Assembly (NCBI GenBank): GCA_023653095.1
Contig: JAMNXP010000010.1
Span: 17,805 to 81,804, forward strand
DNA: 64,000 nucleotides
Direction of reading: 5' to 3'
Source: Bacteroidia bacterium
GTDB taxonomy: Bacteria > Bacteroidota > Bacteroidia > NS11-12g > UBA955
The position numbers and the translations under genes are program-made. Numbering within the stretch: the first letter of the stretch is position 1; each line of letters begins with the position of its first letter. The notes under the pieces were generated by a model. It searched no databases. It worked only from the letters and a program-made list of their open reading frames with translations, and was not told where the DNA came from. Below, in pieces: positions 24,179 to 52,457 of the stretch.

Positions 24179-24189
24179 CTGGTTTGAGT

Positions 24190-24918
24190 CTAGTATTCAA
24201 TTTTGCTTAGGAACAATCCGTGAGCAGGAACTGATTTTCCAGCATCAGAGCGTGTACCAGAGTTTAGTACTCTCTGAAACTCTTGGAGGCTAATTTTTTC
24301 AGTACCCACATCTATGAGTGTGCCAACCATGGCTCTGACCATATTTCTCAGGAAACGATTGGCCTTAACCGTAAACACCGCACCAGTTGTTGTATTTTCC
24401 CAATTGGCTTCATAAATGATGCATACATCGTTATTTTTTGGGACTTTACCTTTACAGAAAGCGGTAAAGTGTTTGTGGTTTTTTAATATTTCACACGCTT
24501 GTGCTAACACCTTAAAATTCAAGTTGACCTTTTTACACCAGGCTATTTCTCCTCTAAAAGCACTCTTTTCATAATCAATAAAATATTGATATTGCCGTGA
24601 CTTTGCAAAAAATCGAGCATGGAAATCGGGTTCAGCCATTTCGATTTTAAACACGCTAATATCATCGGGTAATAGTCGATTTAAGCTGACGCTTGTCTTA
24701 TGGCAATCTAAGGGCTTTTCTGAATCAAAATGAGCCACATAATGCGATGCATGGACCCCGGTATCTGTTCTTCCGCATCCAACAAGCTCCACTTCGGTTT
24801 GCAGAACTTGATTTAAATGGCCTTCAATTTCAGCTTGCACGGAATGAACATTGGGTTGTTTTTGCCACCCATGATAATTTTTTCCGTGGTATTGAAGTTC
24901 TATTTTGTAGCGGGGCAT
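24190..24918 (-). CDS. truA: tRNA pseudouridine(38-40) synthase TruA
   Basis: GCGRTDTGVHASHYVAHF, FLRNMVRAMVGTLIDVG. Confidence 0.96.
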   Translation of the reverse strand: MPRYKIELQYHGKNYHGWQKQPNVHSVQAEIEGHLNQVLQTEVELVGCGRTDTGVHASHYVAHFDSEKPLDCHKTSVSLNRLLPDDISVFKIEMAEPDFHARFFAKSRQYQYFIDYEKSAFRGEIAWCKKVNLNFKVLAQACEILKNHKHFTAFCKGKVPKNNDVCIIYEANWENTTTGAVFTVKANRFLRNMVRAMVGTLIDVGTEKISLQEFQRVLNSGTRSDAGKSVPAHGLFLSKIEY

Positions 24919-24923
24919 TGTAT

Positions 24924-25126
24924 GGTCTTTGGTCCTTGGTCTTTGGTCCTTGGTCTTTGGTCTTTGGTCCTTGGTCTTTGGTCTTTGGTCCTTGGTCTTT
25001 GGTCTTTAGCGGGCGGCGGGCGGCTGTCGGCTGTCGGCTGATGGCTGTCCGCTGTCGGCTGTCGGCCGATCACCGATCACCGATCACCGATCACCGATCA
25101 CCGATCACCGATCACCGATCACCGAA
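24924..25126. repeat. Composite heptanucleotide repeat, locus 1: (GGTCYTT)12 - 9 GGCTGTC-like heptads - (CACCGAT)7 CACCGAA
   Basis: Hand-parsed as 29 consecutive 7-mers with no phase break over 203 bp. Confidence 0.97.
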
Positions 25127-25134
25127 AACTGAAA

Positions 25135-26334
25135 TTATACCCTCTCAAATATAATAGCCGAGCCTTGTCCTACGCCAATGCACATGGTGGCTAAGCCGTA
25201 TTTAAGTGAGGGATTACGTTTCATTTGATGCAATAAGGTGGCAGAGATGCGAGTGCCTGAGGCGCCGAGAGGGTGGCCAATAGCGATGCTTCCGCCGTTA
25301 AGATTTACTTTGTTAGGGTCTGCTTTTAAAGCATCGATGCTGGCAAGAACTTGTGCTGCGAAAGCCTCGTTCAATTCCATGATGTCGAGTTGGTCAATGG
25401 ACAGACCTGCCTTAGCGAGGGCTTTATGAGTGGCTGGCACGGGTCCAATTCCCATGATAGCTGGATCCACACCGGCAATGCCGAAGCTAACAATTCGGGC
25501 TATGGGAGTGAGGTTGTACTTTTTAACCATGTCCTCACTGGCAAGCAAACAACAAGCAGCACCGTCATTGATGCCCGATGAGTTTCCAGCGGTCACGCTT
25601 CCATTAGAACGGAAGGCGGGAGACAAGGTAGCCAAAACTTCAGGGGTGCTCAATCGCGGATGTTCATCGGTTTGAAATATAATAGGGTCTTTTTTCTTTT
25701 GGGGGATGTGGATAGGGGTGATTTCATCATGGAAGTCGCCGCGTTCATGAGCTTGTTGCCATTTTAACTGCGACTCGTAAGCAAATTGGTCTTGGCGTTC
25801 TCGGGTAATGTTGAATTTTTCAGCCACGTTCTCAGCTGTTTCGCCCATGGAAAATGGATGATGCAGTTTAGACAATGACTTGTTGGTGAATCTCCATCCA
25901 ATGGTGGTATCATAAATTTCAGGGGTGCGCGAAAATGCCGCTTCGGCTTTGGCCATGACAAAAGGTGCACGAGTCATGCTTTCGGTGCCACCAGCAATAA
26001 TCAGATTGGCTTCACCGCTTTTGATGGCCATGTATGCGTTTTGGATGCTTTGTAACCCCGATGCGCACAAACGATTCACGGTGTATCCAGGAACCGATTC
26101 GGGTATTCCAGCCAAGAGAGAGGCCATACGAGCTACGTTTCTGTTGTCTTCCCCCGCCTGATTGGCTGCGCCAAAAATAACTTCGTCAACTTCTGAGTAG
26201 TCTATCTGGAGATTTCTGCTAACGATGGATTTTATCACTTCGGCGGCTAAATCATCAGGGCGAACCGATGCGAGGGTGCCACCAAATTTTCCAACCGCGG
26301 TGCGGGTAATGTCAATTACAAAAACATCCTTCAT
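25135..26334 (-). CDS. Acetyl-CoA C-acyltransferase (thiolase)
   Basis: NRLCASGLQSIQNA, NGGSIAIGHPLGASG, CIGVGQGSA. Confidence 0.95.
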   Translation of the reverse strand: MKDVFVIDITRTAVGKFGGTLASVRPDDLAAEVIKSIVSRNLQIDYSEVDEVIFGAANQAGEDNRNVARMASLLAGIPESVPGYTVNRLCASGLQSIQNAYMAIKSGEANLIIAGGTESMTRAPFVMAKAEAAFSRTPEIYDTTIGWRFTNKSLSKLHHPFSMGETAENVAEKFNITRERQDQFAYESQLKWQQAHERGDFHDEITPIHIPQKKKDPIIFQTDEHPRLSTPEVLATLSPAFRSNGSVTAGNSSGINDGAACCLLASEDMVKKYNLTPIARIVSFGIAGVDPAIMGIGPVPATHKALAKAGLSIDQLDIMELNEAFAAQVLASIDALKADPNKVNLNGGSIAIGHPLGASGTRISATLLHQMKRNPSLKYGLATMCIGVGQGSAIIFERV

Positions 26335-49719: not shown

Positions 49720-51909
49720 ATGAAAATAAATAAATTATTAATCACATTGGTGTGCTGTATTTATAGCAGTAGCGCATCATCACAAATTATAGATACCACC
49801 GAAATAGAGTCATTTGACGAAATTTTAGTGTCCTCTCAACGGTTTGCTCAGAAAAGGAGTGAATCACCTCGACAAATAGAGGTTTTAACATCCAAAAGAT
49901 TGAATGAATTAGTTCCTGCCACTTTGGGGGATGCTTTAATTGCTTCGGGTAAGGTATTTGTGCAGAAAAGTCAAATGGGCGGTAGTAGTCCTGTACTTAG
50001 AGGATTTGAAGCCAGCAGAGTTTTGCTTTTGGTGGATGGAGTGAGAATGAACAATGCCACCTTTAGAGCTGGGCATTTGCAGGATATTATCACCGTTGAC
50101 CCATTTGTATTGGATCGGATGGAGATTAATTTCGGCAGCGGTTCTACCTTGTTTGGATCGGATGCCTTGGGTGGAGTGATTTTTCTGAAGACAAAGGATC
50201 CTCAATTGGGACAAAAGAAATGGTCTGGGAGTTTGAACTTGAGGTATTTAAGCAGCAGTAGTTCATTTATAATCAATGGCGGTGTTCAATACCAATCGCC
50301 TAAATTCGGATGGATATTGAATATGACTAGTAGCCAATTTGGTGATCTTCGAATGGGTTCGAGAAGTTATTATAAAGCGGATTCGAAATATGCAGAAATG
50401 CCAAGTTTTGTTGCCCAGCATAATGGAAGAGATACCGTCCTAACCAATAATGATCCTTTGATCCAAAGAGGAACGGGTTATTCGCAGAACGATGTATTTA
50501 CAAAGTTCAAGTTGAAAACAAAGAAATTGTATCATATTTTCAATATTCAGGGTTCTTATGCAGGTATCATTCCTAGGTACGATAGGATGTCACTTACAGA
50601 TAATCAGGGACGGTTTGGATTTGGACGTTGGGACTATGCGCCTCAGAATAGACAGTTATTTGCCTACACTCTACAAAACTTAATTGGTAATTCAAGATTG
50701 GTAATTGCCAATCAAAGAACTCAAGTTGGGAGAATTACTCGTCCCTACGGTAGTCCAACAGAAAGAACGCAATTAGATAGAGTATCTATGTGGACATTAA
50801 ACACTGATCGTCAAAATAAGTGGAGTGCATTTACTTTGAATTATGGTGCCGAATTTGTTTTTAATGACGTTGAGAGTATGGGTTCCAATAAAAATATCCT
50901 CAGCAGAGCAGAAAGCAAAGCCAAGGCAAGATATTCAGATTCAGGTGCACAAACCTATTCATCAGGAGTATTTGCCCAAGGAATTTATAAATGGAAAAAC
51001 ACGGTTGTTCAATCAGGATTGAGACTCACACATTATACGTTGCAAGCATTTTTTTCGGAGTCAAATTTGTGGAAACTGCCATACAATGAAATTTCGTTCA
51101 AGAACACTGGTTTGAGCTACGACTTTGGTTTGACCCAAAAGATGGGCGATTATATGATGTTGAAAGTGTCATACAATCAGGCATTTAGGAATCCAAATGT
51201 TGACGATATGACTAAGGTATTTGAATCGACAAGAGGCATAAAATTATTGATTCCTTCGCCCAATTTGGATGCTGAAGTTAGCAGAACGATAGACTTAGGT
51301 TGGGCCATTTCACACAAAAAATACGGCTCCGGTGAATTAGGGGTTTATCGATCGGCGGTTTCGAACTTGTTGCTGGATCAACCAGGGCAATTGAATGGAT
51401 CTGATTCTTTGCTTTGGGACGGCGCGATGACTAGAATTTATCAAATGGTCAATATTTCATCAGCCACCATTTTTGGATATTATGGAAATGCTCGTATTCG
51501 CATCTGGAAGGATATATGGGCAAACGGTAGTTACACATTCACGCAAGGCAGATTCATGAAGCTAGAAAATTCTGATGATGAGCCTCTTGATCACATACCA
51601 CCCGTGTTCGGACAATTGGCTTTGAGATACAACGCCTCAGAAGTGATTTTTTATGAAGCTCAATACTTGTTCAACGGCCGAAAATTAGCCAAAGACTACT
51701 CCAGTAGTGGCGAAGATAATGCCAATCAAAATCCACCCGGTGGTAATCCTCAATGGGGAATTTACAATATTCGAGTGGGTTATCAACGAAAGGGCCTTAT
51801 GCTGCAGTTGAGCGCGGAGAATTTGTTGGATCTCAGGTACCGATATTTTGCATCGGGCGTAACTGCATCAGGTCGTAGTGTAAATTTGAGCGCAGGATAT
51901 AGGTTTTGA
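49720..51909 (+). CDS. TonB-dependent outer-membrane receptor
   Basis: Plug domain (PVLRGFEASRVLLLVDGVRMNNATFRAGHLQDIITVDPFVLDRMEI) and C-terminal barrel ending in aromatic F. Confidence 0.92.
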   Translation: MKINKLLITLVCCIYSSSASSQIIDTTEIESFDEILVSSQRFAQKRSESPRQIEVLTSKRLNELVPATLGDALIASGKVFVQKSQMGGSSPVLRGFEASRVLLLVDGVRMNNATFRAGHLQDIITVDPFVLDRMEINFGSGSTLFGSDALGGVIFLKTKDPQLGQKKWSGSLNLRYLSSSSSFIINGGVQYQSPKFGWILNMTSSQFGDLRMGSRSYYKADSKYAEMPSFVAQHNGRDTVLTNNDPLIQRGTGYSQNDVFTKFKLKTKKLYHIFNIQGSYAGIIPRYDRMSLTDNQGRFGFGRWDYAPQNRQLFAYTLQNLIGNSRLVIANQRTQVGRITRPYGSPTERTQLDRVSMWTLNTDRQNKWSAFTLNYGAEFVFNDVESMGSNKNILSRAESKAKARYSDSGAQTYSSGVFAQGIYKWKNTVVQSGLRLTHYTLQAFFSESNLWKLPYNEISFKNTGLSYDFGLTQKMGDYMMLKVSYNQAFRNPNVDDMTKVFESTRGIKLLIPSPNLDAEVSRTIDLGWAISHKKYGSGELGVYRSAVSNLLLDQPGQLNGSDSLLWDGAMTRIYQMVNISSATIFGYYGNARIRIWKDIWANGSYTFTQGRFMKLENSDDEPLDHIPPVFGQLALRYNASEVIFYEAQYLFNGRKLAKDYSSSGEDNANQNPPGGNPQWGIYNIRVGYQRKGLMLQLSAENLLDLRYRYFASGVTASGRSVNLSAGYRF

Positions 51910-51933
51910 CGGCTTCGCTGGGGGAGGGAAATT

Positions 51934-52154
51934 GGTCCTTGGTCTTTGGTCTTTGGTCTTTGGTCTTTGGTCTTTGGTCTTTGGTCTTTGGCTGAGAGTT
52001 GAGAGCTGAGAACTCAGCGTTCAGCGGTCAGCTTTCAACTCTACTTCCCGGCTGATGGCTGACGGCTGATAGCTGAAGGCTGACTGCTGACCGCTGATCA
52101 CCGACCACCGACCACCGACCACCGATCACCGATCACCGACCACCGACCACCGAA
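51934..52154. repeat. Composite heptanucleotide repeat, locus 2: GGTCCTT (GGTCTTT)7 - inverted GCTGAG/CTCAGC middle - GGCTGAN heptads - (CACCGAY)7 CACCGAA
   Basis: Hand-parsed: 15 in-phase heptads, one short phase-breaking segment (about 52039-52049), then 15 in-phase heptads. Confidence 0.95.
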
Positions 52155-52160
52155 ATCCAA

Positions 52161-52457
52161 TCAAACAAACTGATTTAAAATGCCAATCAAACGATTTTTG
52201 TCTAATACCCCAGATTGGCGCCAGAGTTGTTTGCCCCGTTTGTATATCATCAATGTGGGTACACCGGTGATTTTGAGAGATTGTGCGACACTTTGATTTC
52301 GGTCAACGTCTATTTTGACCACTGTAGCCTTGTCGCCAATCTCTCGTTTTACTTGTTCTAAAATGGGAGCCATGACCTTGCATGGGCCACACCATTCAGC
52401 TGAAAAGTCAATCAATACAGGCTTTTCAGAGTTTATTAACTTTTGAAAAGAACTCAT
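52161..52457 (-). CDS. Thioredoxin
   Basis: VLIDFSAEWCGPCKVMAP, GVPTLMIYKRG. Confidence 0.93.
   Translation of the reverse strand: MSSFQKLINSEKPVLIDFSAEWCGPCKVMAPILEQVKREIGDKATVVKIDVDRNQSVAQSLKITGVPTLMIYKRGKQLWRQSGVLDKNRLIGILNQFV

Follow-up and report, generated by a model that had tools for sequence, protein, structure and literature searches.

REP/BIME elements, which go with RAYT transposases, are extragenic and palindrome-like, and are found preferentially at gene 3′ ends and between convergent genes. Bacterial heptad repeats have been on record since at least 2007 and are still without an accepted cause. As relayed in a portion of a later account, heptads are the dominant class among long simple sequence repeats with units of 5-11 nt (Mrazek et al. 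2007, via PMC4679880). In Xanthomonas and Nostoc, GGGAATC / GGGGA(C/T)T heptameric repeats form intergenic 7-nt tandem arrays genome-wide (Rehm et al. 2015, PMC4692102); the portion of that study used here gives 70-75 inverted convergent pairs per Xanthomonas genome, an avoidance of divergent gaps, and GGGAATC-type repeats whose length and sequence vary between related species. TAACTGA direct repeats have a scattered phylogeny, occurring in Beggiatoaceae, Cyanobacteria and a few Bacteroidetes (MacGregor 2015, PMC4679880). According to the sections of that paper drawn on here, those in a Beggiatoaceae genome mostly precede start codons immediately and in a single orientation, and translational regulation was proposed for them; relatives without the repeats have shorter gaps, and larger assemblages of several heptamers occur in Gramella, Aequorivita and Elizabethkingia (PMC4679880).

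The arrays described here are a rich variety of this known, unexplained kind of repeat, with the GGGAATC pairs and TAACTGA as precedents. They consist of tandem 7-nt units at many loci, mostly intergenic, and are thus intergenic heptanucleotide repeat arrays; searches of the literature for the exact array sequences returned unrelated primers or nothing. The query segment occupies positions 24924-25126 (203 bp) of the window, the whole 64,000-nt stretch of DNA that was analysed, and is made of exactly 29 unbroken heptads in one phase (12 + 9 + 8, Table 1): 12 GGTCYTT, 9 G/C-rich heptads, 7 CACCGAT and 1 CACCGAA, with a 21-bp AAB pattern. Both the single unbroken phase and this block make-up had been read from the letters in the original prediction, and both were borne out: lag-7 identity is 0.85 across the 203 bp, as against a maximum of 0.39 for the best 203-bp stretch among 300 simulated 2-kb sequences. 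Among periods 4-12 tested in the window, only 7 reached the threshold (together with its multiples), and GGTCYTT x3 with at most 3 mismatches has an expectation of 0.00 in shuffles of the window. The array begins directly after the thiolase stop codon, from which the minus strand of arm C (ATCGGTG) runs into the gap, and extends up to 5 bp before the truA start codon.

Table 1. Query array, second array of the window, flanking genes, empty site, and PF05635 genes lying between arrays. Positions refer to the window unless a genome and contig are given.
Feature	Position	Strand	Remarks
Arm A: 12 x GGTCYTT, G/T-rich on the + strand	24924..25007	+	adjoins truA start codon
Centre B: 9 G/C-rich heptads (AGCGGGC, GGCGGGC, GGCTGTC/GGCTGAT/CGCTGTC, GGCCGAT)	25008..25070	+	
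Arm C: 7 x CACCGAT + CACCGAA	25071..25126	+	G/T-rich strand is minus (ATCGGTG)
truA-like tRNA pseudouridine synthase gene	24190..24918	-	PF01416
Thiolase gene	25135..26334	-	PF00108, PF02803
Empty site: 11-bp gap between convergent stop codons (1519-aa ORF / truA)	24179..24189	.	
Second A-B-C array, same family	51933..52153	+	between convergent TonB-dependent receptor and thioredoxin genes
TonB-dependent receptor gene	49720-51909	+	flank of second array
Thioredoxin gene	52161-52457	-	flank of second array
PF05635 gene between arrays	G000:C3:33767-34072		L026 9660-10100
PF05635 gene between arrays	G002:C17:12958-13266		L228 / L051
PF05635 gene between arrays	G002:C21:15043-15348		L222 / L183

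Several traits are shared with the systems above as these are described in the portions of the literature cited. Gap-relative placement, with G-rich strands convergent across the gap, was found here as for the Xanthomonas GGGAATC repeats; intergenic heptad arrays are common to TAACTGA and to the Gramella, Aequorivita and Elizabethkingia assemblages, and the heptad unit to the long simple sequence repeats of 5-11 nt. However, the Xanthomonas/Nostoc repeats are presented there as one heptad per genome, of a four-unit G-quadruplex type, whereas here several heptads form ordered blocks in one phase. Unlike the Xanthomonas repeats, as far as that description extends, ours have heterotypic arms (the dominant heptad is common to both outer arms in 0/41 long arrays of the host genome, vs ~7 expected) and a vocabulary that is entirely different between sister species. 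The Xanthomonas G-tracts are given as at least three long, while GGTCYTT and ATCGGTG carry only GG and there are no G4 runs in arms A or C; the sister-species heptad GGGTTTC does have GGG. TAACTGA is portrayed as a single heptad on the start-codon side, whereas our arrays lie mainly at gene 3′ ends and have two inward arms. Composite order, polarity and vocabulary turnover set them apart from long simple sequence repeats as described. Like REP/BIME, they are extragenic and palindrome-like and favour gene 3′ ends as well as convergent gene pairs; unlike REP/BIME, they show heptad periodicity, and we identified neither a GTAG/CGTC-tagged palindrome of 20-40 bp nor the Y1 transposase family. Four traits have no counterpart in the cited portions of the GGGAATC and TAACTGA accounts: the multi-heptad single-phase composite, arms that are unlike each other, the wholesale vocabulary change where sister species have orthologous gaps, and the cross-phylum polarity. 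The original prediction, which was right about register and phase, had missed the published precedents as well as the inward polarity, the stop-to-stop filling and the heterotypic arms.

The host genome (G000) is a 2.04-Mb draft, 75% complete, of which only the stretches around pattern matches were read; since its arrays were located through two vocabulary patterns, this sample is biased, while that from the sister species (G002) is unbiased. Across the 2.04 Mb, GGTCYTT x3 gave 97 + 101 overlapping matches and CACCGAT x3 gave 48 + 55; reversed-letter control patterns gave 0. The stretches read contain ~60 arrays, all in the same register, built from GGTCTTT, GGTCCTT, CACCGAT, GGCTGAC/GGCTGTC, GAGAGTT and their relatives, heptads of the GATCGGT class being present in 38 arrays and those of the GGTCTTT class in 25. 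The A-B-C order is near-universal among them. The query composite is therefore not a singleton: it has dozens of copies in the host genome, the second one within the window. That the blocks are not independent slippage arrays, as originally suggested, is confirmed, since dozens of loci repeat the ordered A-B-C with its 7-nt register unchanged, and the blocks, when looked for elsewhere in the host genome, were not found in random order. An extra non-heptad module, for example GAGACTTTGAGACTCACGCTTCGCTA, often lies between A and B and is common to several loci; the modules ACGCTTCGC/GAGACTTTGAGACTC are likewise common to different loci. A module ...AGTCTCAAAGTCTC...ACGCTTCGCTA..., itself repeated, is present between blocks A and B of loci L040, L044, L031, L050 and L042. 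Some contigs (C5, C11, C13) end in or near arrays.

Among 56 relatives, GGTCYTT arrays were found in one congener, the sister species G002, whose thiolase is 94% identical to that of the host. Blind stretches of G002 (460 kb) hold 25 arrays, with period 7 only (400 kb tested for periods) and a vocabulary that includes GGGTTTC, GGGTAGC, GGTAGTT and ACAGACT; 0 heptad classes are frequent (at least 3 arrays) in both species. No heptad arrays were found in ~295 kb of seven other congeners. The array family has probably invaded the lineage of G000 and G002. At the truA/thiolase gap the genes abut in nine congeners, and G002 carries a 200-bp array of entirely different heptads; ~230 bp of heptads stand in G002 exactly at the site that is empty in the host (Table 1). 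Other orthologous sites show the same vocabulary with changed copy number, a different vocabulary, or filling in one species only, in both directions, and the second array of the window has an orthologous array of the same vocabulary in G002. At sites filled in one species and empty in the other, the periodic segments start and stop at stop codons. These orthologous arrays with conserved flanks in another assembly make an assembly artefact, a doubt raised at the outset, unlikely. Progressive divergence of one heptad in place, which had been offered as an explanation, turned out to be insufficient, as the orthologous gap of the sister holds wholly different heptads, and it is also opposed by the same heptads at dozens of unlinked loci. 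On the other hand, the alternative suggestion of a constraint on 7-bp spacing agrees with a period of 7 that is almost exclusive in the host, its sister and other Bacteroidota. The comparison of two sister species whose vocabularies differ at shared gaps thus separates a constant layout from variable letters: constant are the 7-nt step, the inward G/T strand, the unlike arms and the gap filling.

Arrays fill intergenic gaps, preferably convergent ones, and the filling often reaches from one stop codon to the other. With flanking ORFs called mechanically, 28/50 classified array gaps of G000 lie in convergent gene pairs, vs 54/372 array-free gaps; in the blind set (G002 plus the window) 8/18 array gaps are convergent (P=0.003). 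Few arrays occupy divergent gaps. For 52/82 of the flanking gene 3′ ends, the periodic segment contains the stop codon or borders on it. That arrays strongly prefer such ends could reflect mere selection against damage elsewhere.

On either side of a two-armed array, reading the G/T-rich strand 5′ to 3′ leads from the neighbouring gene inwards to the middle of the gap. Keto skew is higher in the left half than in the right half for 42/44 arrays of G000 and 13/13 of G002, and among clearly two-armed arrays inward outnumbers reversed 27:0 in G000, 9:0 in G002 and 19:0 across phyla (0/55 reversed); random windows of the same sequence, drawn without restriction to intergenic sequence, gave 46-48%. 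The cross-phylum loci, found through the single seed heptad GGTCYTT x4, include Oscillatoria, Acidobacteria, Verrucomicrobia, Gammaproteobacteria and others among the matches listed; among those same matches, 31/38 long arrays are inward, with complementary-type heptads downstream in 20 and upstream in 2. GGTCYTT itself is not a specially favoured heptad, its reversed-letter control occurring in as many genomes of the phylum. A transcription-coupled strand bias was rejected as the source of the polarity: codirectional gene pairs keep it too, and in other phyla the GGTC arm is close to the left gene irrespective of that gene's direction. The polarity therefore belongs to the gap and not to transcription.

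This independence from gene direction also speaks against the idea that the arrays act as RNA elements at gene 3′ ends, a heptad-periodic transcript hairpin terminating transcription or protecting mRNA. The enrichment of arrays in convergent gaps is in favour of it, and the plus-strand RNA of the query array does fold into one long hairpin (-102.9 kcal/mol, z -8.1), in which arm A pairs with arm C in register (UUGGU/ACCGA) and each heptad gives a 5-bp helix and a 2x2 internal loop. Such a hairpin, however, arises because of the arm polarity, and the flanking genes are both on the minus strand, whose transcript folds worse (z -3.0). Own arms pair less well than arms re-dealt among the arrays of G000 (P=0.999); together with the sense transcript folding worse than the antisense, this led us to reject selection for a strong hairpin. 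The array matched no Rfam family and a terminator search found no intrinsic terminator-like site in it; some arrays (L029, L037) already have an ordinary terminator-like hairpin with a T run next to them, and the query array splits a gene pair that abuts in congeners. A terminator or RNA-hairpin role of the array is not supported, and we hold the RNA reading to be quite improbable. A control with reversed block order gave no contrast, since arm complementarity is preserved by reversal. G/T-rich sequence of this kind can pair with itself through G-T wobble: under RNA parameters, pairing is far better between two left arms than between two right arms. The single-stranded DNA fold of the array is no better than that of shuffled sequence (z -0.39).

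Plain replication slippage of neutral 7-mers, with order, polarity and vocabulary all accidental, would agree with the differing copy numbers of orthologous arrays and with heptad simple repeats being given, in the part of the literature cited, as the commonest long repeat class in many bacteria (Mrazek 2007, via PMC4679880). Yet it is contradicted as a complete explanation by the same heptads at dozens of unlinked loci, the ordered blocks, the 55:0 inward polarity of clearly two-armed arrays and the want of any period other than 7; slippage remains a component, but by itself it is a very unlikely cause. A non-autonomous mobile element would accommodate the near-universal A-B-C order, the ACGCTTCGC/GAGACTTTGAGACTC modules at several loci, and the existence of orthologous sites filled in one species and empty in the other. 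On this view a transposase or some other copying enzyme dispersed a composite unit of the form A-(hairpin module)-B-C, whose copies then drifted apart through heptad slippage. The vocabulary sharing in G000 could go back to a single ancestral A-B-C unit that multiplied by transposition, and inheritance from such a unit could underlie the heterotypic arms. However, one element fails to explain the same inward polarity with unrelated heptads in the sister and in other phyla, and no conserved ends were seen on inspection of the arrays by eye. Of the dedicated enzymes looked for, neither occurs in both genomes: the REP-associated tyrosine (Y1/RAYT) transposase PF01797 has 0 matches in G000 (75% complete) and G002 (99% complete), and the reverse transcriptase PF00078 is absent from G002, with one match in G000 (RVT_1 domain, G000:C11:326-886, L217), the only one among 14 congeners searched. 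Both enzymes were rejected as drivers, being absent from the 99%-complete G002, and we consider a mobile element unlikely. We would give a similarly doubtful standing to the idea that DNA-end repair gives rise to inward heptad arrays in bacteria generally, whereby the G/T-rich 3′ ends on both sides of an intergenic break would be extended in a telomere-like fashion in 7-nt steps and then joined, the steps coming from self-priming or the copying of other arrays; the layout would therefore be universal, and the letters lineage-specific and changing wholesale between sister species.

Considering these results, we favour whole-heptad growth and loss combined with copying between loci, driven by repair synthesis at G/T-rich 3′ ends and needing no dedicated mobile enzyme, and give this combination about an even chance. 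Its first part is observed: arrays gain and lose whole heptads, hence the phase that never slips, and the vocabulary is common genome-wide and different between sister species. The non-heptad modules common to several loci point to copying between loci. Judging from the polarity, the most probable driver would be repair synthesis that starts from DNA 3′ ends. Copy number may change through unequal exchange or through slippage in steps of entire heptads. Where DNA breaks or stalls inside a gap, G/T-rich 3′ ends would be exposed; by invading other arrays, or by serving as primers for repair synthesis on them, these ends could take over the heptads found there, so that a vocabulary would spread genome-wide; RecA/Rad51 prefer GT repeats (PMC5948810). 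A polarity relative to the gap would be expected, because growth would take place at 3′ ends exposed where DNA has broken or a fork has stalled within it. Perfectly inverted arms would be purged, and homotypic arms would be absent because long perfect palindromes threaten genome stability, as stated in the portion of the source cited (PMC3315005). The 7-nt step size is left unexplained by the repair-synthesis model. In these terms an old oddity becomes a testable question of how intergenic gaps are broken, repaired and rewritten.

Four-helix-bundle genes (23S_rRNA_IVP, PF05635) lie between heptad arrays in both array-bearing species (Table 1). As array drivers they were rejected, being carried also by congeners without arrays. 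In Vibrio, species pairs with matching flanks differ in GGTCCTT copies (~7 vs 4 at L108/L112, ~13 vs 9 at L088/L092), the arrays being single-armed. Another Bacteroidota family (G259, G183, G425, G102; L264-L275) has TTTCTGG heptads, many at contig ends and mostly single-armed. An arm of GGGTTTA x7, the same unit as in the plant telomere repeat, lies within a heptad array of the host (C2, L023 7184-7353). Heptad arrays also yield spurious ORFs, such as LWSLVFG repeats, which should serve as a warning in annotation. In the array at the C5 contig end of the host genome (L032 7473-7670), an open ORF starts with the lipoprotein-like MRPLLIIIATIAAITACQG and continues as repeated PTPKDQR, with three heptads per repeat.
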